Origin: a virus
Reading direction: 5' to 3' (one strand)
Length of the DNA stretch: 28,891 bases
Virus record (IMG/VR): IMGVR_UViG_3300047553_000145
Location: 1 to 28,891 of that record
The notes beneath the pieces were generated by a model. That model was given only the letters and a program-made list of their open reading frames with translations. It had not been told where the DNA came from and did not search any database. Of the stretch, positions 880-25,441 are shown in pieces. The first letter of the stretch is position 1; the number at the start of each line of letters is the position of its first letter. A program made the translations under genes and the position numbers.

Positions 880-886
880 AATTTAC

Positions 887-892
887 ATTATA
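887..892 (-). promoter_or_regulatory. Probable -10 element (TATAAT) for a leaderless start of the oxygenase gene
   Basis: On the minus strand a perfect TATAAT, preceded by GGG, ends 7 bases before the ATG at 879. It overlaps the stop codon of the upstream gene. No recognisable -35 lies at the usual distance. Initiation 6-8 bases downstream would place the transcript start at or next to the ATG, giving a leaderless mRNA. This is inferred from spacing and from recurrence at other genes in the window. Confidence 0.55.
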
Positions 893-1073
893 CCCTATTT
901 TCTTTTTCTGCATAATCTCTTTTCTTTTTCGTTGCAAAAGATACTTTGCTAAGATGCTTGTCTTTACACATCCATGTGGCTTCAAGTGTAGCAGGATATA
1001 ATCTTAAGGTAGTAACTTCTTCTTTACATGTATGACAGGGGAAATGGCCTCGATAAACAGAATAACTAGGCAT
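888..1073 (-). CDS. Small zinc-ribbon-like protein
   Basis: A 61-residue protein with probable zinc ligands C13, C16 (PCHTC), C36 and H40 (MCKDKH), and a lysine-rich C-terminal tail (KKKRDYAEKENR). The paired CxxC and CxxxH suggest one zinc ribbon or knuckle that could bind nucleic acid or protein; the function is unknown. The start overlaps the end of the recA-like gene by 8 bases, and SD complementarity upstream is weak (AAGAAA), so translation is probably coupled. It is the last gene before the oxygenase gene, whose -10 hexamer overlaps this gene's stop codon. Its position inside a tight overlap and the conserved-looking ligands support it as a real gene. Confidence 0.7.
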   Translation of the reverse strand: MPSYSVYRGHFPCHTCKEEVTTLRLYPATLEATWMCKDKHLSKVSFATKKKRDYAEKENRV

Positions 1074-2079
1074 CTATTTGTTTCTTAATCATATCTTGAA
1101 GATCAAGGTCCTCTCTTAGTCTATTTATGAATGCTTCTCTTCCTTGAATTTTTGTGCCATCCTCTAGTTGATACCAAGCACCAGTTCTATTAATTATGCC
1201 CAATGACTCAGCAGTATCACAAAGATCGCCGATAGAGTCAATCCCAAGACTATCACCTCTAAAATAGAAATCATATTCACCAGACTGAAAAGCAGGAGAA
1301 GTTTTGGAAAACTGTAGTTCCCATCTAACTTTGCGACCAATCTTTTCTTCAATAAGTTTGTCACCAACATGTATCTTTCCTTTCAATGCTTGATTATCAG
1401 ATTCTGACGAAAATAGTTTAATAACTGTAGAGGAATAAAACTTAGTAGCCTGACCACCAGTAGGCTGCTGGCTAGTATACATAGCACTAATATTATTACG
1501 AGACTGACTAATAAGGACAAGCAGAGTAGGCTTGACTTTATTATTAGCATAGTTAAGCATCTTCCAAGCATTGCTAAAGTCCCTGGATTCTGCACCAATC
1601 TGCTTGGTATTCTCAAGTTGTTTAAGTTCATCAGAATCCTTTTCAAAATAGATTGCAGGTAGCAGCGATGTAATTGAATCAACTACGATCATATCTACTC
1701 CCGCCTCCATTAATTGTACACCAACATCTACCATTTCATTAATAGTACGAGCCTGTGAAACAATTAACTTTGAAGTATCCACGCCAAGACTTTCTGCCCA
1801 CTTTTTATCGTATGACATTTCAGCATCGATCCATGCACAGATTTTTCCTTCTTGTTGTGCCAGACCAATCATTTGTAGACATAGCGATGACTTGGCTGAA
1901 GACTTAGAGCCCCAAATTAGTACCTGACGACCATACGGTAAACCACCGTTTAGGGCACGGTTAAGACCAAAACTAGGGGTTGATGCATACTCTGTCTTTG
2001 GTATTTGATCACCTGACATTACATTTTTACGCAACTTTGGATTTAGGTTAGCCAATACTTCTTCAACTGTTACAGACAT
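1066..2079 (-). CDS. recA: RecA-family recombinase
   Basis: A 337-residue RecA/RadA-type ATPase that would form filaments on ssDNA and drive strand exchange in phage recombination and repair. The Walker A region is at residues 57-65 (GSKSSAKSS). It keeps the key lysine K63 but has alanine where the canonical GPESSGKT has glycine. The catalytic-type glutamate is E87 in WIDAE, and Walker B is MIVVD at 130-134. The L2-like region contains LISQSRN followed by a TGGQATKFYSS stretch similar to RecA TTGGxALKFYxS. The length is close to that of bacterial RecA, slightly shorter at the C-terminus. The ATG shares one base with the MazG stop (TAATG), and GGGGTAAG upstream can act as SD. It sits directly behind the polymerase and MazG genes. 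Confidence 0.93.
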   Translation of the reverse strand: MSVTVEEVLANLNPKLRKNVMSGDQIPKTEYASTPSFGLNRALNGGLPYGRQVLIWGSKSSAKSSLCLQMIGLAQQEGKICAWIDAEMSYDKKWAESLGVDTSKLIVSQARTINEMVDVGVQLMEAGVDMIVVDSITSLLPAIYFEKDSDELKQLENTKQIGAESRDFSNAWKMLNYANNKVKPTLLVLISQSRNNISAMYTSQQPTGGQATKFYSSTVIKLFSSESDNQALKGKIHVGDKLIEEKIGRKVRWELQFSKTSPAFQSGEYDFYFRGDSLGIDSIGDLCDTAESLGIINRTGAWYQLEDGTKIQGREAFINRLREDLDLQDMIKKQIDA

Positions 2080-2402
2080 TAGAATCTTACCCCATGCTTT
2101 TCTGGTCTAGTTTTATTAAACTGAGTTTTTTCTTCTAATGAATTGTCCAGGGATAGTCTTGTGTATCCTGCTTCAACCAGTCCAGCATAAAGATCTAGTG
2201 TACGAATTAGTATATCCGCAACCTCTTTAGTAATTTCTTCTTCGCCCTTATCTTTCCTTATTGCTTCCATGACCTCAGTAACCTCAGAAACAATCATCAT
2301 ACACTGTTTTGCAACAAAGATATCGTCAACATCTTCTACCTCTGGCCAAAATCCTTTTGTTACTGCTACCCTGTGTAATTCCATTGCTAAATTATCAAGC
2401 AT
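2079..2402 (-). CDS. mazG: MazG-like nucleotide pyrophosphohydrolase
   Basis: A 107-residue all-alpha NTP pyrophosphatase. The metal-binding motif is E40-V-T-E43 (SEVTEVMEAIR) on one helix and E60-V-A-D63 (KEVADILIRTLD) on the next, which is the ExxE...ExxD signature of the MazG/dUTPase superfamily. Phage MazG proteins hydrolyse non-canonical or stress nucleotides; the substrate here is unknown. The length fits a single-domain phage MazG. A strong SD (TTGGAGG, seven bases from the ATG) lies inside the end of the polymerase gene, with which it overlaps by 8 bases. It probably supports nucleotide metabolism during replication (inference from its place between dnaE and recA). Confidence 0.9.
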   Translation of the reverse strand: MLDNLAMELHRVAVTKGFWPEVEDVDDIFVAKQCMMIVSEVTEVMEAIRKDKGEEEITKEVADILIRTLDLYAGLVEAGYTRLSLDNSLEEKTQFNKTRPEKHGVRF

Positions 2403-5400
2403 TTATATCCTCCAATATAACCGTTCCATCTTTTGTTTTACCTAAAGTAAATTTATATGCTGTGCCCTCTTCAATTTTCATATAAGCCTTTGCAAATGAA
2501 GTAGGAAATACAGTAATTGAATGCAGATTCCTTGCAGTATCTGCAACTGTAAGTGATGCCATCTTTTTCCCTTGTTTAGTTACTCTAGGTTTAAATGATA
2601 CCACAAACATTTCTTCATCTTTAAATGGCAACTGCTTATAGTTTAAAAACTTTATCATTGCATTTGTAGAGCCTTTAATTTGATCAACTGGTATAGCAGA
2701 AATAATTCTATTATCATTAGCCAGAAGAATATAAGATGTTCCTGCTTCTATAGTTGTATTCTCATCATCAAAAATTCCTACACTGCCAGTCTTATCAAGA
2801 ACTTCTACTCTCGACCATCCCTTTGCTCTTTTAATGGACTTTACCATTCCCATCAATATAAAAGACCCCTTTTCTTCATAATCCTCTATTGGACTAATGA
2901 ATGCATGGTAATGGGAAGGTACTGTAATATTAAATTCTGGCAGATTTAAATATTCGTAGAGATTTTCTTTAATCTCTTGCTCGTTGCGTGGGTTATCATT
3001 AAATGTCGCTGCACCAATAATTCGTAGTGCTTGAAGAGCACGGCTGTTAACTCCGTTTCCTTTAGTAAAAGTAAACTCCTCAAGTTGAGCATATGAATTA
3101 AAGGGTCTACCCTGAATATAACGTTCAGCAATTTTATCGGATATATACTTAATACCACTAAGACCAAACCTAATGCCCTTACCCTCAATTTTAAAATCAA
3201 TATCTGAATCATTAATATGAGGTAGTTTAATGCTAATCCCCATTCGCTTTGCTTCAATAAGATATTCAGTTCTCGCATCTTTGTCCTTTTCATTTTTTAA
3301 TAGTGAGTACATAAATTCTAGTGGATAATGATATTTTAGCCATGCTGTCCAGTAAGATAAAGTGGAGTAGGCGACGGCGTGGGATTTATTAAAAGAGTAT
3401 CCTGCATGCGCTTCAAAGTCATGCCACAAATCACGAGCAGTATTAGGAGCAACAAAACGAGATGCACCTTCAATGAACTTGTCCTTAAAAACATCAAACT
3501 CTTTAGCATCCTTTTTCTTTCCAATGATCTTTCTAACTTTATCTGCTTCCGACATGGACATACCGCCAAGCGATACGCATGCTTGCATAACTTGTTCCTG
3601 GTAAAGAATACAGCCATAGGTTTCCTCCGTAAATTCTTTTAATACTTGGTGAGTATACCCAATATTTTGACGACCATGCTTGCGCTCAATATAGTCTTTT
3701 CCAATTGTATTCATCGCACCTGGGCGAACTAGAGCATTTGATGCAGCAAGTTCTGAAAGATTCTTTACCCCCATCTTAACAAGAAGATTTGTATATGGCG
3801 CTGCTTCGCACTGGAATACACCCTTTGTGTATCCGTCAGAAAGCATTTGATAAACATTAGCATCATCCATAGGAATTGTTAATGGATCTATCAACTTTCC
3901 TTCTCGCTCTTTAATAATATCTAAAGCATCTTTTACAACACTTAAAGTTTTAAGTCCAAGGGCGTCGATTTTGATGAGACCAATCTTTTCAGCCTCTTCC
4001 ATATCCACCGCCACAACAGGAATACGCTCATCGCTACCAGTAGAAGAACGTGTCTCCATCGGTGCGTACCTAAAAATAGGATCTTTACTAGTGACAACGC
4101 CAGCAGCGTGAATGCCAGTACCTCTAATACGACCACGTAATTGTTCTCCATATTTTTCTACCTCTGGATATTTCTCACGGAATTCCCGTGTTGTTTTAGA
4201 TGTGCAATACTCATCCCAAGTATCCACCAACTTCAAAACTTTGTTAACGTCTGATAATGGAATATTTAAAACACGTGCAACATCTCGAACTACACCCTTA
4301 TCTTTAAATGATAAAAATGTAGCAATAGACGCAACATGTCGATATTGTCTAACAAGATAATCTTTTACTTCTTCACGACGAGAGTCTTGAATATCGGTAT
4401 CAATATCTGGAAAGTCATTTCGCTCTGGATTAATAAAACGAAAGAAAAGAAGTTTATGCTTAATTGGATCAATGTCGGTAATCTTTAATGCATAACATAG
4501 TAACGAACCTGCTGCAGAGCCACGGCCAGGACCTACCATAATCCCTTCTTTTTTTGCCCAAGTAATCATGTTACGAACAACAAGAAAGTATGGACCAAAC
4601 TTTTTATCTTTGATTACTTTTAGTTCTTCATCTAATCGATCAAGATATTCTTGGTTGTCTGAAAGACCTCGCTCTTCTAATCCTGCTAAAGCAAGTTCTT
4701 TTAACTCTTTGTCTGGATTTTTATACTGCACTGGCAGGAGGTCTAGCCCTTCCTGAATTCCATAGTCTGTTACTTTTTCAGCAACGGCCAAAGTATTTTC
4801 ATAGATGTCAGGTCTATCAATTCCCTGTGCCTCCATAGCAGATTTCATTTCTTCATAAGTCAAAAGATGTATATCAAACTTATTAAAAGTAATCTGACGG
4901 TCTTCGCCATAAAGATAGTCTAAGCGCTCCATCATATTTTCTTTTTTCTTAGACTTTTCAAATGTATGTTCTTTGTCAATCTTAACATGTGTGTTAAGCA
5001 GTAGTTTAAATTCTTGAATCTCTTTTTGATCTGTAGAACTATGATGGCAGTCTGGTGTTACAACTACTTTAATCTTAAATTCATCTGCCAAGGCAATAAG
5101 TTGCTTATTAATTTCAGCAGGGTTGTGTGGCATTACTTCGATGTAATAGTCGTCATTGAATACTCTCTTAAACCATTCAATGTGCTTTTTGGCAACTGCG
5201 AATTCATTATTCTCAAGTGCTTTTACTAGCACACTACTTGGACAAGCAGAGGTAACAATAATACCTTCTGAATACTTCTCAAGAACCTCAAAGTCAAATC
5301 GTGGCTTCTTGAAATATCCCTCTGTCCAAGCAATCTCATTAATCTTATTAAGATTTTCTAAACCAATCTTGTTCTTGGCAAGAAGGACTATATGGTTATA

Positions 5401-5667
5401 GACCAGATCTAGATCTCCGTCTCTTTCAGACTTATCTCTAGTATCAAATCGATCTTGACACATATAGCCTTCTACGCCAAGTATAGGCTTAATACCCTTC
5501 GCTTTTGCAATACGGTGCAGTTCCCTATGCCCAGATAAAGTACCGTGGTCAGTGATGGCAATTGCTGGCATCCCTAACTCAACTGCACGGTCAATGTATT
5601 CTTCTGGAGTAGCGATTCCGTCAAAGAGGGAATAGTGGGTATGTACGTGTAAGCCTACGTAAGACAT
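2395..5667 (-). CDS. dnaE: DNA polymerase III alpha subunit (DnaE-type)
   Basis: A 1090-residue C-family replicative DNA polymerase. The N-terminal PHP domain (about 1-280) retains metal-ligand motifs: LHVHTHYSLFDG (H7, H9, D16), ITDHG (D40, H41), GVEGY (E66), MPHNP and TPDCHH. The palm carries PDIDTD with two catalytic aspartates and the third in KIDALGLKTL. GYSFNKSHAVAYS and WLKYHYPLEFM are typical of DnaE. The C-terminal region after about residue 900 contains an OB-fold-like segment. It is slightly shorter than bacterial DnaE. It starts just after the SSB gene (TAA, then TAG, then ATG) with little SD, so it is probably translationally coupled. No separate proofreading exonuclease, sliding clamp or clamp loader gene is in the window. 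Confidence 0.96.
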   Translation of the reverse strand: MSYVGLHVHTHYSLFDGIATPEEYIDRAVELGMPAIAITDHGTLSGHRELHRIAKAKGIKPILGVEGYMCQDRFDTRDKSERDGDLDLVYNHIVLLAKNKIGLENLNKINEIAWTEGYFKKPRFDFEVLEKYSEGIIVTSACPSSVLVKALENNEFAVAKKHIEWFKRVFNDDYYIEVMPHNPAEINKQLIALADEFKIKVVVTPDCHHSSTDQKEIQEFKLLLNTHVKIDKEHTFEKSKKKENMMERLDYLYGEDRQITFNKFDIHLLTYEEMKSAMEAQGIDRPDIYENTLAVAEKVTDYGIQEGLDLLPVQYKNPDKELKELALAGLEERGLSDNQEYLDRLDEELKVIKDKKFGPYFLVVRNMITWAKKEGIMVGPGRGSAAGSLLCYALKITDIDPIKHKLLFFRFINPERNDFPDIDTDIQDSRREEVKDYLVRQYRHVASIATFLSFKDKGVVRDVARVLNIPLSDVNKVLKLVDTWDEYCTSKTTREFREKYPEVEKYGEQLRGRIRGTGIHAAGVVTSKDPIFRYAPMETRSSTGSDERIPVVAVDMEEAEKIGLIKIDALGLKTLSVVKDALDIIKEREGKLIDPLTIPMDDANVYQMLSDGYTKGVFQCEAAPYTNLLVKMGVKNLSELAASNALVRPGAMNTIGKDYIERKHGRQNIGYTHQVLKEFTEETYGCILYQEQVMQACVSLGGMSMSEADKVRKIIGKKKDAKEFDVFKDKFIEGASRFVAPNTARDLWHDFEAHAGYSFNKSHAVAYSTLSYWTAWLKYHYPLEFMYSLLKNEKDKDARTEYLIEAKRMGISIKLPHINDSDIDFKIEGKGIRFGLSGIKYISDKIAERYIQGRPFNSYAQLEEFTFTKGNGVNSRALQALRIIGAATFNDNPRNEQEIKENLYEYLNLPEFNITVPSHYHAFISPIEDYEEKGSFILMGMVKSIKRAKGWSRVEVLDKTGSVGIFDDENTTIEAGTSYILLANDNRIISAIPVDQIKGSTNAMIKFLNYKQLPFKDEEMFVVSFKPRVTKQGKKMASLTVADTARNLHSITVFPTSFAKAYMKIEEGTAYKFTLGKTKDGTVILEDINA

Positions 5668-5670
5668 CTA

Positions 5671-6324: not shown

Positions 6325-6349
6325 GTATTTCTCCTTTGTTATTGTTATA

Positions 6350-7294
6350 TTAGTTTAGCATAGAGATGATATCTTTGTCAAATGAGACTTCCAACTTTTT
6401 TATATCTTCATCTAACATATCGCCTATATCCTTATATTGTTTATTTAGTTGTATAACGGAAACACGAGATCCAAGTTTTTCAATTATCTTATCTTTCATG
6501 TTTCCTCCCGCCTCATCGTTATCTGCAATAACAATAATATTATTGAAGTATTTTTGAAGCAATTCTATTTGTATGTTAGACACATTAGATCCTAGTGTAG
6601 CAACTGCTGGTAATCCAACCTGGTCTAAACGAATGGCATCGAATGATGATTCTACTACATACACTTTATCTGCTGTCTTAACACGATTTAAATTAAAAAG
6701 TGTTTTTGCTTTTGGAAGACCTGGTGTATTCTTAAACTCCTTGCCCTCAATTGATCTACCAACAAAACCAACTGGCATACCGTCTGGACTATGTACAGGA
6801 ACAGTTACCATATCTTGTTTTTCAGAATAGCCTAAAGAAAACTTTGACCAAGACGATGCATCAATCTTACGATACTTAAAGTAATCTTTTGCCCTATCAG
6901 AACTGAGCAAATTGTTATTTAGTCTTTTAATAATCAATTCGTCAAATGGGGTAAAGTCTGGCTTTACTACTAACTTCTGATTTATATCACGTTCTAGATC
7001 TTGCTCTGTTTCTTTGCTTTTGATAAAACGAACTGATTCAAAGTAGGTTCTGCCTGAAGTGTGCATAACAAATTCAACAAGATCGGCAATATGGTGGCAG
7101 GAAAAACAAAAGAAGGTCCCGTTATTCTTATCAATTTCTCCAGCAGGAGTACGGTTGTTATTATGAAATGGACAAAAAATTATATAGTCTGAGTCTACTT
7201 CTGATTCTACTGTGATTCCTGAACCTGTAATGACTCTTTTGATTTGCTCTTTTGTATATAAATTGGCTTGTTTACGTCTATCCCTAATATCCAT
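6350..7294 (-). CDS. dnaG: DnaG-type DNA primase (CHC2 zinc finger plus TOPRIM)
   Basis: A 314-residue primase that would make RNA primers for the phage polymerase. The zinc-binding domain has C41-P-F-H44 and C63-F-S-C66. The TOPRIM core has E215 and D219 (VVESSFDAI) and the metal-binding pair D258/D260 (IADNDEAGG). It ends soon after TOPRIM, so it lacks the C-terminal helicase-binding domain of bacterial DnaG. Helicase contact must therefore use another surface or a partner. The start is supported by AAGGAAAAGCG just before the ATG, although the ORF overlaps the preceding gene by 88 bases. The next methionine (M77) lies downstream of the zinc finger, so a shorter form would lose it. Confidence 0.94.
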   Translation of the reverse strand: MDIRDRRKQANLYTKEQIKRVITGSGITVESEVDSDYIIFCPFHNNNRTPAGEIDKNNGTFFCFSCHHIADLVEFVMHTSGRTYFESVRFIKSKETEQDLERDINQKLVVKPDFTPFDELIIKRLNNNLLSSDRAKDYFKYRKIDASSWSKFSLGYSEKQDMVTVPVHSPDGMPVGFVGRSIEGKEFKNTPGLPKAKTLFNLNRVKTADKVYVVESSFDAIRLDQVGLPAVATLGSNVSNIQIELLQKYFNNIIVIADNDEAGGNMKDKIIEKLGSRVSVIQLNKQYKDIGDMLDEDIKKLEVSFDKDIISMLN

Positions 7295-7539
7295 TCGCTT
7301 TTCCTTTTCCCTGCATATACTCCGTGTAGTGATATTTCAAATTCAAAATAGTTCTTATTCTCATTATAGTCTATAGTAAAATCTGGGTCAATGTCAATTC
7401 TTGGCACATAGCCAGACAAGCGCATTTCAGAAGTAAGTAGTCTTGTGTACTCACCTTTTAACCTACCCAGCATCGATTCATCGTGGATGATCCCGCTAAG
7501 GGAAAATCTCTTAATTGTCTTATGATGAAAATTTGACAT
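7207..7539 (-). CDS. Hypothetical protein overlapping the primase start
   Basis: A 110-residue protein that I do not recognise. It has a basic N-terminus (MSNFHHKTIKRFS), alternating charged and hydrophobic strands in the middle (RIDIDPDFTIDY, YFEFEISLHGVY) and a lysine/serine/glutamine-rich tail encoded in the part that overlaps the primase gene. It fills the otherwise empty 257-base gap between the helicase and primase genes. No SD is visible, but TATAAT lies five bases before the ATG, the same arrangement as at other genes here. It heads the primase-SSB-polymerase block. The 88-base out-of-frame overlap is unusually long. If the gene were spurious, the gap would be the largest non-coding stretch in the window. 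Function unknown. Confidence 0.65.
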   Translation of the reverse strand: MSNFHHKTIKRFSLSGIIHDESMLGRLKGEYTRLLTSEMRLSGYVPRIDIDPDFTIDYNENKNYFEFEISLHGVYAGKRKSEWILGIDVNKPIYIQKSKSKESLQVQESQ

Positions 7540-7544
7540 ACCAT

Positions 7545-7550
7545 ATTATA
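7545..7550 (-). promoter_or_regulatory. Probable -10 element (TATAAT) at the head of the primase-polymerase block
   Basis: A perfect TATAAT on the minus strand ends 5 bases before the ATG at 7539 and begins just after the helicase stop codon. No convincing -35 is seen 16-18 bases upstream. The spacing fits a leaderless transcript for the 110-residue protein and internal transcription of the primase, SSB, polymerase, MazG and RecA genes behind it. Confidence 0.55.
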
Positions 7551-7551
7551 A

Positions 7552-9276: not shown

Positions 9277-9290
9277 TTTATACCCCTTTG

Positions 9291-9833: not shown

Positions 9834-9970
9834 CTTCCCTCTTCTGAATCCTCTGGTGGATGAAAAAATTTTCTTGATCCACAGTATAAACAATATGTCT
9901 CAATATGCCCAGCAGCAGTATATTGTCTATCAACAAACATATTCTTAAAACATTTTGTACATTTTAGCAT
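9779..9970 (-). CDS. Small zinc-ribbon protein
   Basis: A 63-residue protein with two CxxC knuckles, C4/C7 (KCTKC) and C27/C30 (YCLYC), predicting one zinc ribbon, followed by a charged C-terminal helix (SEEGRWLLKKEQLRAK). The function is unknown; nucleic-acid or protein binding is the usual role of such ribbons. Its ATG shares one base with the stop of the preceding tail gene (TAATG), and no SD is seen, so coupling is likely. Its 3' end overlaps the MerR-like gene by 55 bases. The preserved cysteine pairs argue that the frame is real. Confidence 0.7.
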   Translation of the reverse strand: MLKCTKCFKNMFVDRQYTAAGHIETYCLYCGSRKFFHPPEDSEEGRWLLKKEQLRAKVTISSL

Positions 9971-10413
9971 TAGTTAGGTATTCCAATGGCAATAATGTTA
10001 ACTGCAACAGATAGATCACCAGTAGAGTTAAACCTAACAATTCCTTCAACCTTTGATGTTGTAACTGTTTTTAAAACAACAGACACATTTTTACCAGCAT
10101 CAGTGCCACCAGTATTAATTGGTGTTGCTGTTACCACGGGAGCATACTTAAAGTCTGCTGCAAAATCATATGAGAAACCAACTTCATTTCCAGCACTCTT
10201 GGTTGCACTTGACACAACATCTACATACCCTCCAATTATTCGGGCCTCTGAAGCCTTTACGCTTTGTTTTCCGACACCAGCAGTATCTACGGTAACATAC
10301 TTATAGGTAGCAGGAGAGATCTGTGTAGACAACTCGTTTATAGCGTTTGCTAATTGATAGATGTATGAAACATCTAGTGGTTGTCCTCGTTCTGGAAGTG
10401 GTAGTTTTGCCAT
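9970..10413 (-). CDS. Small tail or fibre protein, lectin-like beta-sandwich
   Basis: A 147-residue protein. The N-terminus has an extended start and a helix (VSYIYQLANAINELSTQI), as in trimerising fibre proteins. The rest is beta-rich, with FKYAPVVTATPIN, VSVVLKTVTTSKVEGIVRF and a final VNIIAIGIPN. This layout recalls H-type-lectin-like tip domains of phage fibres, so a role in host surface contact is inferred. It is the last of the tail genes before the DNA-binding and replication genes. There is no SD; a perfect extended -10 (TGGTATAAT) lies six bases before the ATG, so it may be translated from a leaderless mRNA. Confidence 0.7.
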   Translation of the reverse strand: MAKLPLPERGQPLDVSYIYQLANAINELSTQISPATYKYVTVDTAGVGKQSVKASEARIIGGYVDVVSSATKSAGNEVGFSYDFAADFKYAPVVTATPINTGGTDAGKNVSVVLKTVTTSKVEGIVRFNSTGDLSVAVNIIAIGIPN

Positions 10414-10419
10414 TATTCT

Positions 10420-10425
10420 ATTATA
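10420..10425 (-). promoter_or_regulatory. Probable extended -10 element (TGGTATAAT) between tail and replication genes
   Basis: A perfect TATAAT on the minus strand, with TGG directly before it, sits in the 15-base gap between two tail genes and ends 6 bases before the ATG at 10413. No -35 is evident. It would give a leaderless message and could also supply transcription for the helicase region downstream. Confidence 0.6.
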
Positions 10426-10428
10426 CCA

Positions 10429-10860
10429 TCAAAAGGTCATTAATTCTGTCTCAAACAATGTAGACGTAGTAAAGCGATTTTTGGGAAAAGTTGGCACTTG
10501 TACAGCAAACATAACTTCTGTAATTCCTTCTTTAATTAAACAACTATAAGTATTGCTATATGTGGGTCCAAGATATTCCCAAGATTCTGCATCCCATTTA
10601 ACATAAATGTCATATTCTGATAGATCTTGGACCTGTGCCCAAACTAATGTAATAATATTTAAACTAGTATCAACAGACATTGCATAGTTAATTGCTTGAA
10701 CAGTATTTGGTGATAATTTATATTGAGGGGACCAATGTGATACTCTGTTACGATCTTCTGAAACAATACGATATCTAACTATATACTTATTATCGGTACC
10801 AAAAACAGATGGAAGATTCTTTTTTTGAATAATAACCTTTTTAATGCCTGAGTCAGCCAT
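10429..10860 (-). CDS. Small tail protein, fibronectin type III-like
   Basis: A 143-residue protein. The segment YIVRYRIVSEDRNRVSHWSP and the following strands (ITLVWAQVQDLSEYDIYVKW) look like a fibronectin type III or related Ig-like module, a frequent part of tail tips in actinobacteriophages. A second set of strands (YSNTYSCLIKEGITEVMFAV) completes the sandwich. It is probably a structural or adhesion subunit. The ATG overlaps the stop of the preceding gene as TAATG with only weak SD, so the pair is likely coupled. Confidence 0.7.
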   Translation of the reverse strand: MADSGIKKVIIQKKNLPSVFGTDNKYIVRYRIVSEDRNRVSHWSPQYKLSPNTVQAINYAMSVDTSLNIITLVWAQVQDLSEYDIYVKWDAESWEYLGPTYSNTYSCLIKEGITEVMFAVQVPTFPKNRFTTSTLFETELMTF

Positions 10861-11981
10861 TATTGAACATCCATTGCAAATCTAAATTCAATATAGTTAG
10901 TTGTATTTGCTGATTTAATGATTGTTCGTGCATCAACATTTTTTACCACGGAATAACCAGTAAGGCCATAAAGTGGATTTGAGGTTCCTGTATTTTCAAA
11001 TCTAATGGCATCTAGGCAAATATAAAAATCAGATGACGGTGAGCCATTGTCTATAACGCATGCATATATTTGAACTACATCGATACTAGCCCAAGTAAAA
11101 CCAGTGCTCTTAGTAAGTTGCTGCAACTGTTTTGTAGCAACAAAATATCTATTTGTATTAAAATCAAAATCTTCGGCATCTAGGACAACTTCAAATCTAG
11201 CGTATTCTCCAGTACCATGAATATCAGTAGAGGAAAATTGCAAAAGCAGACGTACAGAATCAGGGATTGCGGTTGATTGACCATCCTTGTTTGCTAATGT
11301 AAAAGAAAATTTTAATTCATCTGTTGGTGCATTTTTATTAAAATCTAGTGTTGCTCCAGTTAAATGAATATGCTCAGATCCAGAATTTACAACAAGTTTG
11401 TTATTTTCATCTAAAGAAAGATTTGAAGAATCCCCAGACATCATAACTGTATTATTGAAGAACCTGCATCTCTCATATCTTTCAACTCTTTCTGTACTTG
11501 TAAAGATTCTGTTATCTGCGTTTGTTTGAAACACTGAGTAAGGTTGATCAATAATATTGTCATCATTATCCCCGTCTAAAGGCTGATAGATTATAGGAAT
11601 TTCTCCTGCAGTATCGGTTGTATGATGTTCCCAGTTTTCATCCTGCGTAAATGCATAAATAGATTTACTGTCATATGCTCCTGCAATTGGATTAGATCCA
11701 GCAGAATATACACCAACTTCGGTTATCTCATAGCGTTCTTCTGTAGGTAATTCAGCAGTTAAAACAATTTTAGATACTCCATTTTCATTTACGTATCCCC
11801 TAGAAGTTATAGGAACCCTAAACATCTCGAAGTCAAGCGCTGACTTTGCGGAGTAGTCTCCAAGCACAGCGTCAGAGTTGACTGGCGTTGCTCCACAACC
11901 AATGGCAATATACGAAGCGTATGCTGGTGCTTGACCAATTAAATACTTTGCCAAAATGCCTTTTCCAATATTTGTTATCAT
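10860..11981 (-). CDS. Tail fibre or minor tail protein with collar-like N-terminus
   Basis: A 373-residue protein. The N-terminal part (about 1-120) has features of tail-collar fibre proteins: an IGKGILAKYLIGQAP start, YIAIGCGATPV, and YEITEVGVYSAGSNPIAGA near residue 95. The C-terminal half is a predicted beta-sandwich with FEVVLDAEDFDF, IDVVQIYACVID and FYICLDAIRFEN, similar in style to carbohydrate-binding jelly-roll modules. It likely attaches to the tail tip through its N-terminus and presents the sandwich to the cell surface (inference). TGGGGTGG lies before the ATG, which directly follows the stop of the upstream gene. Confidence 0.75.
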   Translation of the reverse strand: MITNIGKGILAKYLIGQAPAYASYIAIGCGATPVNSDAVLGDYSAKSALDFEMFRVPITSRGYVNENGVSKIVLTAELPTEERYEITEVGVYSAGSNPIAGAYDSKSIYAFTQDENWEHHTTDTAGEIPIIYQPLDGDNDDNIIDQPYSVFQTNADNRIFTSTERVERYERCRFFNNTVMMSGDSSNLSLDENNKLVVNSGSEHIHLTGATLDFNKNAPTDELKFSFTLANKDGQSTAIPDSVRLLLQFSSTDIHGTGEYARFEVVLDAEDFDFNTNRYFVATKQLQQLTKSTGFTWASIDVVQIYACVIDNGSPSSDFYICLDAIRFENTGTSNPLYGLTGYSVVKNVDARTIIKSANTTNYIEFRFAMDVQ

Positions 11982-12470
11982 TTATTCCACCCCATATATT
12001 GTATCACTAAAGATTGATCCATTATCTAGTATTTCTACCTCAACTTGCTCATCTTCGTTTAAATTGATGACATTAATAATAAGATTGCCAGTCGAAGCCT
12101 CAATATATACTGTCTCACCATTTGGACCAGTTCCAACATTTGGGATAGTGTTTTCTAGTTTAATTGGAAATTTTTTAAAGTATTCTTCTGATGTGTTTTG
12201 CAAGCCCAAAATATTTTGAGGATTATACTGAAAGTTGATACCAGTTAAATTTTTAATAGGCTGATAGATTACGCTCTGACCATTAATAATATCATTTCTA
12301 GCAATATTAATAATTTCTTGTCCACCAATATTTTCAAATATAAGATCTGTCATAACCTCAATCGGTGTTGACTCATCATTGTAAAGGATAATGTCAGTTG
12401 TTGGTATTTTAACACCACTGCTTGATGATGATGGCACAATTTGTGGTATATTAGGATTTGCACTAACCAT
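11982..12470 (-). CDS. Small tail protein of unknown function
   Basis: A 162-residue protein located between the large hub-like gene and the fibre gene. It has an alanine/serine/proline-rich N-terminus (NPNIPQIVPSSSSSG), then beta strands with asparagine-rich turns, including ETVYIEASTGNLIINVINLN and VEVEILDNG. I do not recognise a family. Its place in the tail-tip cluster, the TAATG overlap with the previous gene and GAGG at good spacing make a minor structural or connecting role likely. Confidence 0.7.
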   Translation of the reverse strand: MVSANPNIPQIVPSSSSSGVKIPTTDIILYNDESTPIEVMTDLIFENIGGQEIINIARNDIINGQSVIYQPIKNLTGINFQYNPQNILGLQNTSEEYFKKFPIKLENTIPNVGTGPNGETVYIEASTGNLIINVINLNEDEQVEVEILDNGSIFSDTIYGVE

Positions 12471-20300: not shown

Positions 20301-23300
20301 GGCGCTTACCTTTTTAATCTTTGGAATAAGAAGATCTAGTTGTTCTCCAACAGATTTTACATCAGCACCGAGATAGTTCATTCGAACGTCAAGAGTTAGT
20401 GGTGTACTCAAGATGTCGTCTCCATTAGGAGCAAAAATCTTATTTAGTCTAGCCTTTACCTCTAGTTCATTTGCACCGCTTTGTTCTGTTGCTGCTTTTA
20501 TATTTGCTGCGATGTCTGCTGGATCTAAACCATTGACAGCAATTCTATTTGCGATATCTTTAACTGTTGCAGTAAGCGCTTGCTCAATGCCTTTGCCCTT
20601 TGCTGCTTTTAGAACTGCTGCATCTCCAGCACCCTGGTTTGCATAGAAGTCTCTAAACTTTGCAAGTTTTGCTTTATCTGCACTGATAAATCTTTCATTT
20701 CCAACTCTATTAAACTGTCTATCTGAAGGCAATCCACCATCGCCAATAAATGCTCCATAAGACTGTAGAGATCCAACAGATCCTTGACGTATTTCTGCTT
20801 CTTTCTTTGCAGATTCATTCAATTTCTTGACATAGTCATCTTGTGCTTTTCTTGCCAATAAGAATCCAGCGGTAAGTGCAGCAACTCCTGCTACTGCTAA
20901 TCCTATTGGATTAGTAAGCATTGGTAGAAGCATTGCAAATGTTTGCAGCCCCATAATAGCAGGCATTAGGCTTTGTGCAAACTGTCCTACCTGTCCAGGC
21001 ATCATTGCTGCACCCATTGCTACACCTGATGCAACCATTCCATACTTCATTGCTCCGCCTGAGATTGCTTGAGCATTGGCTCTCATTTTACTATTTTCAA
21101 ATCGGTTGGAGATTCTTTGTCTTAGTGACTGTCTCTTTGGCACTGATGGCATTCCCAAAAATACTGGAGATGATTTTGAACCACTAGAACCTGAACCCTT
21201 TGGAACTAATAAACCAGAAGAAGTTTGTTCAAATTCATCAAGGGCCCCTTGTGCAATTCTTTGTGCTGCTGCCTTAACTTCTGGAGCCTTTTTATTCATT
21301 CCAACAATTAGTCCTTCAGAAATATTTTGACCTACTTTTTCCGTAAACTCTGATGGAGATGCAGTTTGTGCTCCCTTTGCTACTGCTGTTACTGCAGCCT
21401 TTCCTAGTTGAGATCCTCTTTGTTCTAGTACTGCTCTTAACTTAGAAACTTTACGCTCTACAGTTTGTGCTGACCTTGGATCTAGAGCAGAGTCATATGC
21501 TCTTTGTTCTAATGTATCATAGTAATTACCAGAAAGTCTAACTCCAAGACCAGCCTCCGCTGCTTTAGCCTGATACCCAGTATCTGTTTTGGCAATTTCT
21601 CTTAATACACCCGCTGCTTGTGCAGTTGTTGGATGTATACCTGCCTTAAACTTTTCAACCTCACCACGTACTTCTTCTACTGAAATTCCTAATTTAATAG
21701 CAGCGTCATCTACATTTGACTTAGAGAAGTTATCTAAAACATCTTTGTTTTGTTGTAATGCATTTATATAGTTATTAACATATCCAAGATCTGCTTGAAG
21801 ATTTTCTGCTCTCCAATTTTTAATAGCAATATCTTGTCCACCAATATCCATACTAGAAACATCTGGAGCAATGTGTGATGCCTGCTTTCTAGTTAAGTTT
21901 CCAATTTTCTTTGCTGCTCTATCTGCATTTTCTCCAACAGCATCAAGCGCCTCTTGTGCAGCATTAGTAACAGCAACTAACTCATCAGCAAGTGTATCCC
22001 ATGAAAGAGTCTTGCTTTGCTTTAATACTGAATATGGTGCTTTAAAGAGTCCTAATTGCTTCTTTAGATTTCCTATACCTAAAGACTCTAATCCACCAAC
22101 TACTGAACCTGGATCTTTTGCATATCCAGGAATATCAATCTTTCTACCCTGAAGCAGCCCAGCAACAATTCCAGGGTTCTTCTTTACAGTGTTTACAGAT
22201 AAAACGACTTCTCCATTTGAAAGGTTTGCTGGAACCATGTCATCTTTAGGTCCTCCAGGTCCAGAAACAATGCCACCATTTGCAAATCTTTTTGGCTGTC
22301 TAGACTGTGGAACCATCATTCCTGGATTATTAAATGCAAACCTTTCAGAAGCAGCGGCTGCGGAAAGATAAGCATTACGTAAATTATTTACTGCATCTGC
22401 TTCAACTGTAAAGCGTTGTGTAAGTCTAGCGTGAACCTGATCAAGTGAGTGGGCTACTGCTTCTGCCTGCATTTGCTCACTTGTTAAATATTGTGTTTGC
22501 TCTCCTAAATATTTTGACTGTCCAGTTAGTTTCAAGTAGCCATTTCTAATTATTCCAAACAATTTCATCATCTGTCCAGCAAAGTTTGCTATCAAACCAA
22601 CAAGCATTAAAACAACTGGACCAACTCCTGCAAACAATGTGACTAATGTTGTAATTACTTTTTTAGTTCCGTCAGACAATCCATTAAACTTATCTGCTAT
22701 CTTTGTAAAAAACTCAATAATTGGTGTGACAACCTTTAAGAATGCTTCTCCAACTGGTGCAATAGATGCTCTTAATGATTCTACTGCTGCTTTAAATTTA
22801 GTTGCAGAATTTTCTTCAATTGCATTTAATTCTTTGTTTGCAATTGCAGCAAGGTCTTGTGATGACATCTTAACAAGTTCAAGTGCATTTGCTGCTTGAG
22901 ATCCAGATCTAGCAACGTTGTCAAACAATGCAGATACTCTAGCAAATTGAAACTTTCCAAACAATTTTTCTAAAATTCTTTGTCTTGCTAGTGGCGTTAA
23001 TTCCTTCATTGCATCTGCAAGATTAAGTACCGTACGCATAATGTTTCCTTCATTTTTAGAAACAATAGCATCAATATCTATATTAACGCCCTGAAGCATT
23101 TCTCTTGCAGCCTTGCTTGGATTGATGATAGATGCCAATGCTGACTTTAAACCGTTTGCTGCTTCTGCTGCATTTACACCACCCTCTTGCATTGCTGCAA
23201 GGAATACTGACATATCTTTAATATCTCCACCAAGACCTTGAATAACTGGAGCCACTCTTGGTATAGCATCGGTTAAATTCTGCAGGCTAACAACAGATTG

Positions 23301-24284
23301 GTTTTCAACTGCGTTAAGGAAGTTAATTGATTCAGCAAGTTGATCACTGTTCATCTTAAATGCAGTTTGTATTGCAATTGTTGCTGAAAGGGCTTGCTGC
23401 TTATCCACCTCGCCAAGCACGGATAGTCTAGTTGCAGCCTTTACCTGATCTGCAAGTTTTTGTCCTTGAAAGCCTGCTGCTGCTGCATCTGCTGCAATAG
23501 ACATTGTGTCTGCAATTGCAACACCATACTTGGTAAATTCTTCTGCAAGTCCTCTAATAAAAGTTAGGTTTGCATCTGTCTCTGATGGAAGTGTGAGAAG
23601 ATCTCCATAAACTCTTCTAAACCTAATAACTTGTTTTTCAAGGTCCATAAATACTTTAGATGCCGTGGAACCAAAAATGCTTAATGGTATTGTAAAACCT
23701 ACCATCAATTGTCGACCAGCCCACTGTGTATTCTTACCAAAATTAATTAAGTTTGTTGTACCTTGTGCTAAAAGTTGATTAAACAACTGCTGCTTTTGAG
23801 CAGCCATCATTGTCTTGGTGCCAAGGTTTTCCATATCAAGAGCAAGTGGTGTGACAGCAATTGCTTTCATTGCTCCAGAGGCATCTCTGCCCATCTTAAT
23901 ATACTGTGTCTGTAATCTTCTTACACGCTCTTCAGCAACCTTGTTAATGGTTTCAAACTCAGTCTTAAAGACTTTACCAAAATTTTTAGAGGAGGCTACT
24001 CCGTATCTAAAGTATTCACGCATTGAGAATTTATTCTTCTCAAGTGAATTTGTGAATGACTCAGCGGATGTTTTTATTGTCTGCATTCGAGCAGCAAATT
24101 GACCCGTAGCATTTATAGAATTAAGAAATTCTTGCTGCAGGTTTCTTTGTGCTATCGTTGCCGATGCAGACGATTTTGCTATCTGATTGTGAAATTGTGA
24201 GATCTGTCGCTGTAGGTTTTTTAACTCACCTAGGGCTGCAGACGTGTCAATATTAACGCTGATATTAGCATTAACATCTGACAT
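17391..24284 (-). CDS. Tail tape measure protein
   Basis: A 2297-residue tape measure protein that sets tail length and is ejected with the DNA. The TP901-type core is at about 190-400 (IADTMSIAADAAAAGFQG, AVENQSVVSLQNLTDAIPRV, MQEGGVNAAEAANGLK). Hydrophobic segments lie near 545-575 and 1105-1145. A long coiled coil occupies about 1840-2050, rich in E, Q and K. A glycine-rich linker follows near 2115. A GG-rich motif with VPA-LS-GE occurs twice, near 665-700 and near 2205-2235. At roughly 1.5 angstroms per residue, the rule for such proteins, the tail would be in the range of a few hundred nanometres (estimate). The ATG follows AGAGGTGAGA, downstream of the two chaperone genes. Confidence 0.96.
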   Translation of the reverse strand: MSDVNANISVNIDTSAALGELKNLQRQISQFHNQIAKSSASATIAQRNLQQEFLNSINATGQFAARMQTIKTSAESFTNSLEKNKFSMREYFRYGVASSKNFGKVFKTEFETINKVAEERVRRLQTQYIKMGRDASGAMKAIAVTPLALDMENLGTKTMMAAQKQQLFNQLLAQGTTNLINFGKNTQWAGRQLMVGFTIPLSIFGSTASKVFMDLEKQVIRFRRVYGDLLTLPSETDANLTFIRGLAEEFTKYGVAIADTMSIAADAAAAGFQGQKLADQVKAATRLSVLGEVDKQQALSATIAIQTAFKMNSDQLAESINFLNAVENQSVVSLQNLTDAIPRVAPVIQGLGGDIKDMSVFLAAMQEGGVNAAEAANGLKSALASIINPSKAAREMLQGVNIDIDAIVSKNEGNIMRTVLNLADAMKELTPLARQRILEKLFGKFQFARVSALFDNVARSGSQAANALELVKMSSQDLAAIANKELNAIEENSATKFKAAVESLRASIAPVGEAFLKVVTPIIEFFTKIADKFNGLSDGTKKVITTLVTLFAGVGPVVLMLVGLIANFAGQMMKLFGIIRNGYLKLTGQSKYLGEQTQYLTSEQMQAEAVAHSLDQVHARLTQRFTVEADAVNNLRNAYLSAAAASERFAFNNPGMMVPQSRQPKRFANGGIVSGPGGPKDDMVPANLSNGEVVLSVNTVKKNPGIVAGLLQGRKIDIPGYAKDPGSVVGGLESLGIGNLKKQLGLFKAPYSVLKQSKTLSWDTLADELVAVTNAAQEALDAVGENADRAAKKIGNLTRKQASHIAPDVSSMDIGGQDIAIKNWRAENLQADLGYVNNYINALQQNKDVLDNFSKSNVDDAAIKLGISVEEVRGEVEKFKAGIHPTTAQAAGVLREIAKTDTGYQAKAAEAGLGVRLSGNYYDTLEQRAYDSALDPRSAQTVERKVSKLRAVLEQRGSQLGKAAVTAVAKGAQTASPSEFTEKVGQNISEGLIVGMNKKAPEVKAAAQRIAQGALDEFEQTSSGLLVPKGSGSSGSKSSPVFLGMPSVPKRQSLRQRISNRFENSKMRANAQAISGGAMKYGMVASGVAMGAAMMPGQVGQFAQSLMPAIMGLQTFAMLLPMLTNPIGLAVAGVAALTAGFLLARKAQDDYVKKLNESAKKEAEIRQGSVGSLQSYGAFIGDGGLPSDRQFNRVGNERFISADKAKLAKFRDFYANQGAGDAAVLKAAKGKGIEQALTATVKDIANRIAVNGLDPADIAANIKAATEQSGANELEVKARLNKIFAPNGDDILSTPLTLDVRMNYLGADVKSVGEQLDLLIPKIKKVSAPSLWDKFKAGFLGDITGAGVGTAMSGIQEKEDKYIANQNNVASVTNTLALNFEKQRQSLALLNAAYVDGTISQEEYNAKHAVTMANFNLLQQSSAKYIKQLNEIDSSGELAGMALEDLANTLLAPFEKTNKKVAGQIKGILKAMPKSVQTEILMNYARGSLTETDILQMDLMLKNLSGKTYEEKIAFIADIPSSEKGLRAMMQLRVEYERLTVLQIEKINQDSINKINRARGGKALNLGASVAYNAQLDKIAGIKKELDKLNKVKPDSPTVNGTTGINDAGSKGNDPYAFIDGLLKRLKEVRKASINATGGTKEFIAQLKGNLTGFKGTEEMLRLGGATEGFIEIMRGIDPADFKILNKKNALYTFGKDGKVVFGELGDAINKFATEIELGDFVNTQQKIKTNAGEQVEAYKKLSEAGVSAAKITEILGNEALTAAVAVEKVGSADWNNFISGAKQADSSVKELAKTLKILAFRNEQEQETSTDRMNEYFAAQEAIIKQQARADFTKLRGYSPEQYEQLIKDQQDIIDGIQEEIDAEQEKNNVRQEEIDRYSRGLELISRQENKINESYDKQFEAIDSQISALEEVVKINDQLIDQQKQQTDLAGALSSGDIGAAAKIAQDMRATAAKNSQETFISNLENQKKNLELKKEQELKNIQVEINGQYYTRTQLQDAIIVKEDEIYLSEQTTLKTLNDKVKVQETILKDMQRIIDKYNNDMTKAINNVTNAAGQTKAEWDSINTVIETTADWLGEEGLLGLTDDLADAALDLEAAWKKVLAAIQEANAAAAGAGGAGGSGGGKNQTTKQPPKPGLNTEQTELLNETSSYIQDLVNDGQIDVAEQATVIMMKELADIKPLASIDIVNARKQALGYLSKGGLVPKYFAAGGFARGTDTVPAMLTPGEFVMSKYAVNAHGVDKMKAINNGSSVGDSVYTYNLSVNVKSDANPNEIAKTVMAQIKQIDSQRLRGVRQ

Positions 24285-24308
24285 TCATTCTCACCTCTTT
24301 AGTTGTTA

Positions 24309-24641
24309 TTAAGCATTTGCTGCAAGTGCGGAATTCAAGAATGAATCCTCACCTAGTTTAATACCAGAAGCAACATCCACAATCTTATATACTGTTGGAA
24401 GATCAATATTTGCTTCCAACGCTGCTGCATCCTTTGCCAATTCTGGCTTATATTGTTCTAGTGCAATTTGTACGCACTCCATTAGAACTGTCATTGACTT
24501 ATCATTATCATCTGCTACCTTTGCAATCTTGTCAAAGGTCTTCATAAACTTACGAAGCAAAGATACGCTTAGTGGCTTAAGTTCAAGTTCTGTACCGTCC
24601 ATAAGAGTTACTTTATTTGCTTCATATACTGTTGTTGTCAT
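24309..24641 (-). CDS. Tail assembly chaperone-like protein, short form
   Basis: A 110-residue protein placed before the tape measure gene, where tail assembly chaperones (lambda gpG-type) are found. Its helical core (LKPLSVSLLRKFMKTFDKIA, then MECVQIALEQYKP and LPTVYKIVDVASGIKL) lines up with the N-terminal part of the upstream 225-residue protein, so the two are probable paralogues. It lacks the C-terminal extension. I prefer the ATG at 24641 because GGAGG lies four bases before it. An in-frame ATG at 24662 has TATAAT five bases upstream and could give a form with seven extra residues. It probably coats the tape measure during assembly. Confidence 0.8.
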   Translation of the reverse strand: MTTTVYEANKVTLMDGTELELKPLSVSLLRKFMKTFDKIAKVADDNDKSMTVLMECVQIALEQYKPELAKDAAALEANIDLPTVYKIVDVASGIKLGEDSFLNSALAANA

Positions 24642-24667
24642 TTTTCCTCCATTTTTAGACATTACTA

Positions 24668-24673
24668 ATTATA
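24668..24673 (-). promoter_or_regulatory. Probable extended -10 element (TGCTATAAT) before the short chaperone gene
   Basis: A perfect TATAAT preceded by TGC on the minus strand lies in the gap between the two chaperone genes. It ends 5 bases before the in-frame ATG at 24662 and 26 bases before the SD-led ATG at 24641. It may raise expression of the short chaperone, the tape measure and genes behind it. A TTGACA exists further upstream but at 21 bases, too far for a normal -35. Confidence 0.6.
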
Positions 24674-24688
24674 GCATGAAACATACGC

Positions 24689-25366
24689 TTATTTTGTCAA
24701 ATCTTCGTAATCTAGTCCCATACCAATACCAAATCCTGCTTTCTGTGCTTTTGGACCTTGAAAAGAAACAATATCATTTGCATCAGACGTCTTGCCACCA
24801 CTAAATACTCTAGCCTTCATTTCTTCCCAAGCGTTAGACTTATCACTTTGCTCATCAAGATTTACACCTTGCATAGCAGCATCAAACTTCTTTTGTTGAT
24901 ATTCTAAGTCTCTTTTAGTTGATAGCAATAGCGTAAGTTCTGGCATAGATATAGAGTCTTCTAGTTCTTCAAAGTTTTTCCATATTCCCGTCAAAAATGC
25001 CTCTGCCTCAAGCGTTGGTAAATCTATTTCTGCCCACGTAGTTCCATCTTTATTTTCTACACCAGGATCTGCTGTGTTGGATGTTTTAATTTCTGCAGCA
25101 TATTCTAATATTTTGTACAATGTTTTTAGATCGAAACTATTTGCAATAACATCTTTATTTAAATAAACATTTGGTGCAAACTGGTGCATGGCAATAAATA
25201 CACAGTCTATGACTAGATCTAAGGCCTCATCTTGATCATCAGTTTGAGAGACAAGAACGAACTTGTCCATAAACTCTCTCATATATTTTATTTTAAGTGG
25301 ATAAACTTTTATAACATTTCCGTTGATGTCTTCTACATATCCAGTTTTATAAACTTCTTTTGCCAT
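24689..25366 (-). CDS. Tail assembly chaperone-like protein, long form
   Basis: A 225-residue protein. The N-terminal half (about 20-100) has the helical chaperone pattern (VYPLKIKYMREFMDKFVLVS, IDCVFIAMHQFAP, LKTLYKILEYAAEIKTS) shared with the next gene. The C-terminal half (MPELTLLLSTKRDLEYQQKK, AMQGVNLDEQ, NAWEEMKARVFSGG) resembles the T-extension of gpG/gpGT systems. It would link the tape measure to the tube protein during tail assembly. There is no overlap with the next gene and no clear slippery heptamer at a useful place, so frameshifting is not apparent. There is no SD; TGGTATACT lies six bases before the ATG, suggesting a leaderless start. It follows the terminator behind the tube gene. 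Confidence 0.8.
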   Translation of the reverse strand: MAKEVYKTGYVEDINGNVIKVYPLKIKYMREFMDKFVLVSQTDDQDEALDLVIDCVFIAMHQFAPNVYLNKDVIANSFDLKTLYKILEYAAEIKTSNTADPGVENKDGTTWAEIDLPTLEAEAFLTGIWKNFEELEDSISMPELTLLLSTKRDLEYQQKKFDAAMQGVNLDEQSDKSNAWEEMKARVFSGGKTSDANDIVSFQGPKAQKAGFGIGMGLDYEDLTK

Positions 25367-25372
25367 CTAAAC

Positions 25373-25378
25373 AGTATA
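25373..25378 (-). promoter_or_regulatory. Probable extended -10 element (TGGTATACT) for the long chaperone gene
   Basis: TATACT with TGG directly before it ends 6 bases before the ATG at 25366 on the minus strand. It stands right after the T-rich tail of the terminator, where a new transcription start is needed. There is no SD between it and the ATG, so the transcript is probably leaderless. Confidence 0.6.
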
Positions 25379-25384
25379 CCAAAA

Positions 25385-25422
25385 GAAAAATAGAAAAGCC
25401 CAGACTTTTTACGGTCTGGGCC
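25385..25422 (-). terminator. Rho-independent terminator behind the major tail protein gene
   Basis: On the minus strand an eight-base-pair GC-rich stem (GCCCAGAC pairing with GTCTGGGC, positions 25421-25414 with 25405-25398) encloses an eight-base loop. It is followed by TTTT and further T-rich sequence. The T tract is on the minus-strand 3' side only, so it acts on transcripts of the tail tube gene. It starts about 20 bases after that gene's stop codon. Confidence 0.9.
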
Positions 25423-25441
25423 AATCCTATATTAAATTGTA

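Follow-up and report, generated by a model that had tools for sequence, protein, structure and literature searches.

Do the -10 boxes that stand immediately before several ATG codons of a virus genome mark leaderless genes, or are they coincidences of AT-rich DNA? The question arose from the IMG/VR virus record IMGVR_UViG_3300047553_000145, of which positions 1 to 28,891 were analysed as one stretch (hereafter the window; 28,891 bases, 36% GC). A first-pass annotation had reported boxes of the TATAAT type ending 7, 5, 6 and 6 nt before the ATG codons at 879, 7539, 10413 and 25366, none of them accompanied by a Shine-Dalgarno (SD) sequence, as well as a fifth box before an in-frame ATG at 24662, and had proposed that these genes are leaderless. 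We found the arrangement again in related records, and we consider it very probable that a sigma70/SigA-type promoter code with two geometries, one leaderless and one with a short SD leader, is used in this probable actinophage. The code would presumably be that of the host, read by a host sigma factor. In the first geometry, TGnTATAAT with little or no -35 element would stand 6 nt (range 5–9) before the ATG, transcription would begin on the A of the start codon or no more than about 3 nt away, and ribosomes would bind the 5'-terminal AUG directly. The second geometry would have the box 14–33 nt before the ATG, leaving a short leader, mostly with an SD; the other genes would sit within operons, either SD-led or closely following or overlapping the previous gene. 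The observations behind this reading are a spacing peak, a gap beyond it, an anticorrelation with SD sequences, conservation among homologues and a set of controls.

All the boxes lie on the minus strand, and their distances from the ATG codons are exactly those first reported. TATAAT occurs at 887-892, 7 nt before ATG 879, and at 7545-7550, 5 nt before ATG 7539 and directly after the stop of a DnaB-like gene. The extended -10 elements TGG-TATAAT (10420-10428) and TGG-TATACT (25373-25381) stand 6 nt before ATG 10413 and ATG 25366, respectively, and the fifth box, TGC-TATAAT (24668-24676), ends 5 nt before ATG 24662. TGn precedes the three last-named boxes and is absent at 879 and 7539, as had been noted. 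The absence of an SD at 879, 7539, 10413 and 25366 was borne out, and the SD-led genes named in the first-pass annotation have no -10 box at 5–8 nt. Using 26 curated starts, we found a box (TANNNT with at least 5/6 matches to TATAAT) at 5–7 nt before four of them, compared with a mean of 0.59 when each 45-nt upstream stretch was dinucleotide-shuffled 4,000 times; four or more starts were reached in 10 of the 4,000 shuffles (P = 0.0025). This P value is post hoc, since both the motif and the distance were chosen from the same sequence, and the window supplies four cases, two of which (879 and 7539) are without TGn; the independent test in relatives therefore carries the weight.

We collected 160 related loci, namely the best 80 of 436 confirmed relatives with the polymerase as query and the best 80 of 317 with the 25366 protein as query. 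Gene-based counts were taken from nine (G001, G002, G005, G008-G013; 991,793 bases) of the 13 long related records, where 1,304 of the 1,426 called open reading frames (ORFs) had a testable first ATG, each gene being taken to start at the earliest ATG in its longest open frame. The distance d is the number of nucleotides from the last T of the box to the ATG, and an extended -10 is TGn followed by TANNNT with at least 5/6 matches. Enrichment of the motif across relatives was the check that had been set beforehand, and it was found: an extended -10 was present at d = 6 in 78 of the 1,304 genes, compared with one of 3,591 internal in-frame ATGs. No gene had it at d = 5, and 22, 7 and 17 genes had it at d = 7, 8 and 9, respectively; the internal ATGs had five in all at d = 5–9. 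Further out, the counts were 0, 1, 1 and 0 at d = 10 to 13, and 120 genes at d = 14–33. Counted by protein family, the extended -10 occurred in 37 families at d = 6, in 14, 5 and 7 families at d = 7, 8 and 9, respectively, and in 2 at d = 10–13; out of 427 testable families, 45 had a member at d = 5–7, 49 at d = 5–9 and 54 at d = 14–33. Each of the nine records contributed 9–21 genes with d = 5–9. In this clade of uncultured viruses, about a tenth of the genes have a promoter so near the start codon that their transcripts almost certainly lack a leader.

The same spacing was recovered independently of the gene caller: 66 of the 256 exact TGNTATAAT sites were followed exactly 6 nt on by an ATG opening at least 40 codons, with 1, 14, 6 and 9 such ATGs at 5, 7, 8 and 9 nt and 0, 0 and 1 at 10, 11 and 12 nt. 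At 6 nt after exact TGNTATAAT the start codons were 66 ATG and 1 GTG. A loose pattern applied to the 13 whole records gave 153 matches (91 forward, 62 reverse), compared with 13 (9 + 4) for the reversed pattern. With TGn optional, boxes of any kind were present at d = 6 in 112 of the 1,304 genes and at 23 of the 3,591 internal ATGs. A bare-hexamer count over every open ATG of 161 redundant loci plus the window had no clean peak (47 at d = 6, 42 at d = 9, 40 at d = 12), probably swamped by internal ATGs and repeated contigs; for its flatness it was replaced by the gene-based counts.

Three AT-rich phages (33–40% GC) of other hosts served as controls. T4, SPO1 and HTVC008M had extended boxes at d = 5–9 in 1 of 250, 0 of 173 and 1 of 178 genes, respectively, with no peak at d = 6; with a looser box (4/6), SPO1 had 2 at d = 6 and HTVC008M had 17 boxes of any kind at d = 0. 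The loose pattern gave 12 matches in T4, SPO1, P-SSM2 and HTVC008M pooled vs 8 for the reversed pattern, and it gave 0 in BillNye and 2 in Moab, with 0 reversed matches in each. BillNye (53% GC, 154 genes) had a weak peak, with 3 extended and 8 any-kind boxes at d = 5–9 and 0 at d = 10–13. Judged by this small set of controls, the spacing is a trait of actinophages that is pronounced in the AT-rich clade studied here.

The genes with close boxes also differ from the others in their SD sequences. A match of at least 4 nt to the SD was found in 12 of 100 genes at d = 5–7, 4 of 24 at d = 8–9, and both genes at d = 10–13, compared with 37 of 42 at d = 14–20, 71 of 78 at d = 21–33 and 614 of 1,038 genes without an extended -10 (boxless genes); 88 of the 100 genes at d = 5–7 are thus without a 4-nt SD match, as a leaderless gene should be. 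Transcription generally starts with a pyrimidine at -1 and a purine at +1. The base before the ATG is a pyrimidine in 77% of the 124 genes at d = 5–9, 53% of the 120 leadered genes (d = 14–33) and 36% of the 1,038 boxless genes, an excess that fits a +1 at the A of the ATG. Genes whose closest called neighbour upstream is encoded on the opposite strand number 38 of 123 at d = 5–9, 17 of 119 among leadered genes and 151 of 1,035 among boxless genes; same-strand gaps of 5 nt or less make up 4%, 16% and 55%, respectively. At the level of the clade, the mixed start code that had been proposed (leaderless genes, SD-led genes and close-packed, possibly coupled genes) is supported. Leaders of about 4–7 nt, corresponding to d = 10–13, are avoided. 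We read this as leaders that exceed what leaderless initiation tolerates and yet leave no room for an SD; a 2010 paper on E. coli reportedly found that the start codon needs closeness to the 5' end. As a separate observation, GCN (Ala) follows the start codon more often at d = 5–9 (33% of the 124 genes) than in the 120 leadered (21%) or the 1,038 boxless genes (15%).

For three genes of the window, the box and its spacing are conserved even in divergent homologues. We counted distinct upstream contexts, the window's own included, leaving out tblastn hits missing the first residues of the query, hits near a locus end and repeated upstream contexts; hits below 45% identity to the 25366 query were left out as well, and so were, for the 25366, 10413 and short-chaperone counts, hits without an ATG at the aligned start. 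For 25366, the start of a long tail-assembly chaperone (24689-25366, minus strand), 35 of 37 contexts (48–100% identity) had an extended -10 at d = 5–9, 23 of them at d = 6, and the other 2 at d = 14; an SD was present in 1 of the 35. For 10413, the start of a 147-aa tail-module gene (9970-10413, minus strand) that is conserved in relatives and had no PHROG or Pfam hit and no match among named phages, 29 of 35 contexts had d = 5–9, 4 had d = 15–16, all with an SD, and 2 were without an extended -10. In the homologues of L064, L071, L072 and L080 the -10 is kept, and an SD-bearing stretch stands before the ATG. For 7539, the start of a 110-aa replication-module gene (7207-7539, minus strand; family phrog_17515), TATAAT precedes an in-frame start in 26 of 26 contexts, by 5 nt (18 contexts), 6 nt (2) or 7 nt (6), and the start codons are those admitted for leaderless genes, ATG in 23 and GTG in 3. 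The conservation of this box is not explained by DnaB-like coding, because the box follows the stop of that gene. Leaderless expression of 25366, 10413 and 7539 is well supported by these comparisons.

For the gene cut by the contig end (1-879, minus strand; weak phrog_2954 match), a leaderless start at 879 is plausible as a single case. Two large families (L164, L165; 26 and 41 testable members in the nine records) have PHROG hits labelled 2OG-Fe(II) oxygenase or 'ferrochelatase'; 879 shares its PHROG with one of them, and leaderless-type starts occur in several members. In another family (118; L113, L115, L149, L153, L160) of about 430 aa, whose protein we take, by eye from its start, to be protease-like, an extended -10 stands 9 nt before the ATG in 5 of 14 representatives.

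The fifth site turned out to belong to the second geometry. Its box is a conserved promoter element, present as an extended -10 in 33 of 33 contexts of a short chaperone paralogue (24309-24641, minus strand), where it lies at d = 23–29 before an SD-led ATG. The gene does not start at 24662, as in the ORF list and the first-pass annotation: the codon there is not ATG in L085, L087 and L089, and it is the ATG at 24641 that is conserved, placed 26 nt behind the box and preceded by GGAGG (24646-24650, minus strand). The leaderless proposal is well supported for 25366, 10413 and 7539, plausible for 879 and not supported for 24662, where the gene is SD-led in all 33 contexts. Gene callers that depend on an SD or choose the longest frame may assign wrong starts here, as with 24662 vs 24641; there are newer gene finders that model leaderless starts. 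Another leadered promoter candidate, TGA-TACAAT at 11998-12006 (minus strand), lies 16 nt before start 11981, inside the coding sequence of the previous gene, and an extended -10 was present in 22 of 24 cluster representatives. At the boundary of genes 10860-11981 and 11982-12470, a conserved TGnTACAAT box thus sits in the final part of one coding sequence, ahead of the tail gene that follows.

Several points weigh against the two-geometry reading. The position of the transcription start, leaderless initiation, the use of a host sigma factor and the host itself are all deduced from sequence, strongly so in the case of leaderless transcription. The nine records are related to each other, and their gene counts are not independent; only the family counts approach independence. 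Boxes of any kind show a smaller, unexplained excess at d = 1 (34 of 1,304 genes vs 24 of 3,591 internal ATGs), mostly without TGn. In the 10413 family, 17 of 35 contexts have d = 9 and 7 of the 29 at d = 5–9 have a 4-nt SD match, and some of these contexts may represent very short leaders. When the nearest any-kind box is taken for the 7539 family, 17 of 23 contexts lie at d = 5–7, since the remaining 6 have a box-like hexamer still closer to the start. The two sites without TGn, 879 (d = 7) and 7539 (d = 5), miss the sharp mode at d = 6, and 879 has no start-aligned homologue except for a copy in L002. Finally, scans of genome contigs for a relative returned none, and the host is accordingly a deduction.

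Some of these points bear on the alternative that the boxes are promoters, with leaders of 1–5 nt or starts inside the ATG, and that translation comes by coupling or read-through from upstream transcripts. This we regard as unlikely. The spread of spacings from 5 to 9, the start of 7539 only 12 nt after the previous stop codon and the cluster of 10413 contexts at d = 9 speak for it; the mode at exactly 6 and the pyrimidine at -1, however, indicate a +1 at the A, all 37 contexts of 25366 have a terminator-like hairpin upstream, and the opposite-strand neighbours (38 of 123 vs 151 of 1,035 genes) make coupling unlikely there unless a short uncalled frame intervenes.

A second alternative concerns the polymerase. 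We searched for -35 elements (at least 5/6 matches to TTGACA, spacer 15–19), counting per gene without collapsing families. They were found at 8% of the 124 extended boxes at d = 5–9 (shifted positions 1–2%), at 27% of the 120 leadered extended boxes (shifted positions 1–9%) and at 26% of 34 non-extended boxes at d = 6 (shifted positions 0–6%). WhiB and AsiA (T4) are proteins that act on sigma, and a phage factor, e.g. a WhiB-like protein bound to region 4 of the host sigma, could redirect the polymerase to -35-less extended -10 elements, the spacing being then a by-product of a dedicated phage promoter class. The near absence of -35 at the close extended boxes agrees with such a factor, and so do the WhiB gene in each of the 13 records and the failure to find a sigma-70 region 2 domain there, but leadered extended boxes and non-extended boxes at d = 6 do carry a -35, and we judge this explanation to be very unlikely. 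What the boxes suggest is ordinary sigma70 logic, with TGn standing in for the absent -35; TGn directly before TATAAT with a dispensable -35 is the pattern of the clade, and in the window it occurs at 10413, 25366 and 24662 only. As an observation in its own right, the -35 is mostly absent at leaderless and frequent at leadered extended boxes, which could correspond to two promoter classes with different timing. A sigma-70 scan requiring a -35 over 24000-26200 found 6 sites vs 5.9 expected and did not list the boxes described here, as expected for boxes without a -35.

The idea that TATAAT is simply common at 36% GC and that coincidences were picked can draw on the four window cases, the post hoc motif and the flat bare-hexamer counts over open ATGs, but it is hardly credible in the face of 78 genes from 37 families at d = 6 vs 1 of 3,591 internal ATGs, 13 reversed vs 153 pattern matches and the absence of a peak in the three AT-rich phages taken gene by gene; it is refuted at the level of the clade and could still hold for 879 alone.

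The two geometries meet in the tail-assembly chaperone genes. The long chaperone matches both chaperone ORFs of Streptomyces phages (BillNye, Moab), its N-terminal part resembling ORF 1 and its C-terminal part ORF 2, in one frame behind a predicted leaderless start. A single open frame of at least 180 codons was found in 37 of 37 contexts, and the second part in another frame that marks frameshifted G/GT genes was thus not found in the long chaperone of the window. In its first 94 residues, the long chaperone is a paralogue of the short one (31% identity, E = 2e-16). Just upstream of the 25366 promoter lies an intrinsic-terminator-like hairpin with a T tract (25397-25422, minus strand; z -3.72). 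The terminator scan at this site found 1 vs 1.0 expected in shuffles and is weak alone; being at chance level, it leaves conservation across contexts as the evidence. All 37 contexts of 25366 had, upstream, a hairpin of -9 kcal/mol or lower followed by a T-run, compared with none of 37 reversed controls, and the same test gave 1 of 33 for the short chaperone and 0 of 33 for 10413. A strict terminator regular expression matched 1 of 123 genes at d = 5–9, 0 of 119 leadered and 0 of 1,035 boxless genes, and the folding-based test was used instead.

We compared this locus with 13 Streptomyces-type loci (11 loci plus BillNye and Moab; L252 is 100% identical to BillNye). The second part is in another frame in 13 of 13 (7 distinct upstream contexts), the first ORF has 115–116 residues and starts with ATG (6) or TTG (7), and no second chaperone copy was found within the up to 1.3 kb searched downstream. 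Inspection by eye of the 62 nt before the first ORF showed boxes resembling TGGTAAGAT or TGGTAAACT together with a leader that is rich in purines and SD-like; BillNye has, ahead of them, an inverted repeat of terminator type. In lambda, the G and GT chaperones are produced by frameshifting. The pair of the window resembles the G/GT pair of lambda and of the Streptomyces phages BillNye and Moab in its position between the major tail protein and the tape measure and in its two parts; the Streptomyces type, however, is one leadered gene with part two in another frame, whereas the window clade has a fused, predicted leaderless long gene and a separate SD-led short paralogue.

The conservative account is a gene fusion and a duplication, with the loss of one leader. 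The polarity of fusion and duplication is suggested by the Streptomyces outgroup: the ancestral form would have consisted of a terminator, an extended -10, an SD leader and G with T in another frame. It is possible, although we put it forward only tentatively, that the initiation mode replaced frameshifting in setting the ratio of the two chaperones, the ancestral G/T gene having become a leaderless, fused GT behind the same terminator and a duplicated G-like gene having kept the promoter and the SD leader. The long-to-short ratio would then follow from the leaderless vs SD-led start and the extra promoter.

The remaining content of the window indicates the type of phage. The minus strand holds 27,513 of the 27,939 bases of called ORFs. 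The replication module includes RecA/UvsX-like, MazG-like, DnaE-like polymerase, SSB, primase and DnaB-like genes, and the tail module an Ig-domain protein (25442-26056), the chaperones, a 2,297-aa protein at the tape-measure position and minor tail proteins. The 20 best-ranked of 1,360 named records matching the DnaE-like polymerase are Streptomyces phages (53–56% amino-acid identity), with weaker matches to Pseudomonas, Mycobacterium and other phages, and all 127 records matching the chaperone are Streptomyces phages. A WhiB-like gene was present in 13 of 13 long related records (L163 and others). WhiB is described as an actinophage indicator in PMC10202952. The clade thus combines a WhiB-like gene with nearest named relatives that infect Actinobacteria. 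The host is probably a low-GC freshwater actinobacterium, and the low GC and WhiB point to one of the Ca. Nanopelagicales type. No sign of a phage-encoded sigma factor was found: the sigma-70 region 2 domain (PF04542) was present in 0 of the 13 long related records. No tRNA genes and no matches to known RNA families at Rfam gathering scores were found in the window; nine related records carry tRNA arrays of 2 to 24 genes each, with most in G012.

The relatives provide a natural series in which the same gene is leaderless or SD-led with its promoter kept. Together with the gap, this series makes the interconversion of initiation modes and the unusable leader lengths directly testable; from the chaperone genes it would seem that two modes of initiation have taken the place of a programmed frameshift. 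In the literature searched, which covered few subscription papers, we found no report of leaderless genes in freshwater actinophages or Nanopelagicales, nor of the chaperone arrangement; a clade-wide phage leaderless system with measured spacing, or a 10–13 nt gap, was likewise not found in the literature searched.

Leaderless phage mRNAs as such are known. Lambda cI is the classical case (PMC9031893), and leaderless mRNAs of lambda cI and P2 are mentioned in PMC9031893 and PMC4633059, the latter of which calls leaderless translation in E. coli weak. These are likewise phage genes with an AUG at the 5' end, but, as far as those sources go, they are few and in E. coli. According to Zheng et al. 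2011 (PMC3160421) and Shell et al. 2015 (PMC4633059), leaderless genes are common in actinobacteria, have a TANNNT, -10-like signal about 10–12 bp before the start codon and no SD, and show SD-like and TA-like signals substituting for each other among orthologues. The clade shares with these genes the -10 near the start, the absence of an SD and the substitution of signals among orthologues; it differs in being made up of phage genomes, and in its extended TGnTATAAT, low GC, sharp 6-nt mode and almost exclusive use of ATG, whereas ATG and GTG are both used in mycobacteria. The closest parallels are the leaderless promoters predicted in Cluster O mycobacteriophages (PMC4351075) and for Adephagia gene 90 (PMC11373665), which are also SigA-like promoters of actinophages whose +1 coincides with the start codon's first base. 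In the passages concerned, a few promoters are given per genome, whereas the clade described here has 9–21 genes per record and 49 families, tested against controls. The system is therefore known in kind, while its clade-wide extent and the rearrangement of the chaperone genes look new.

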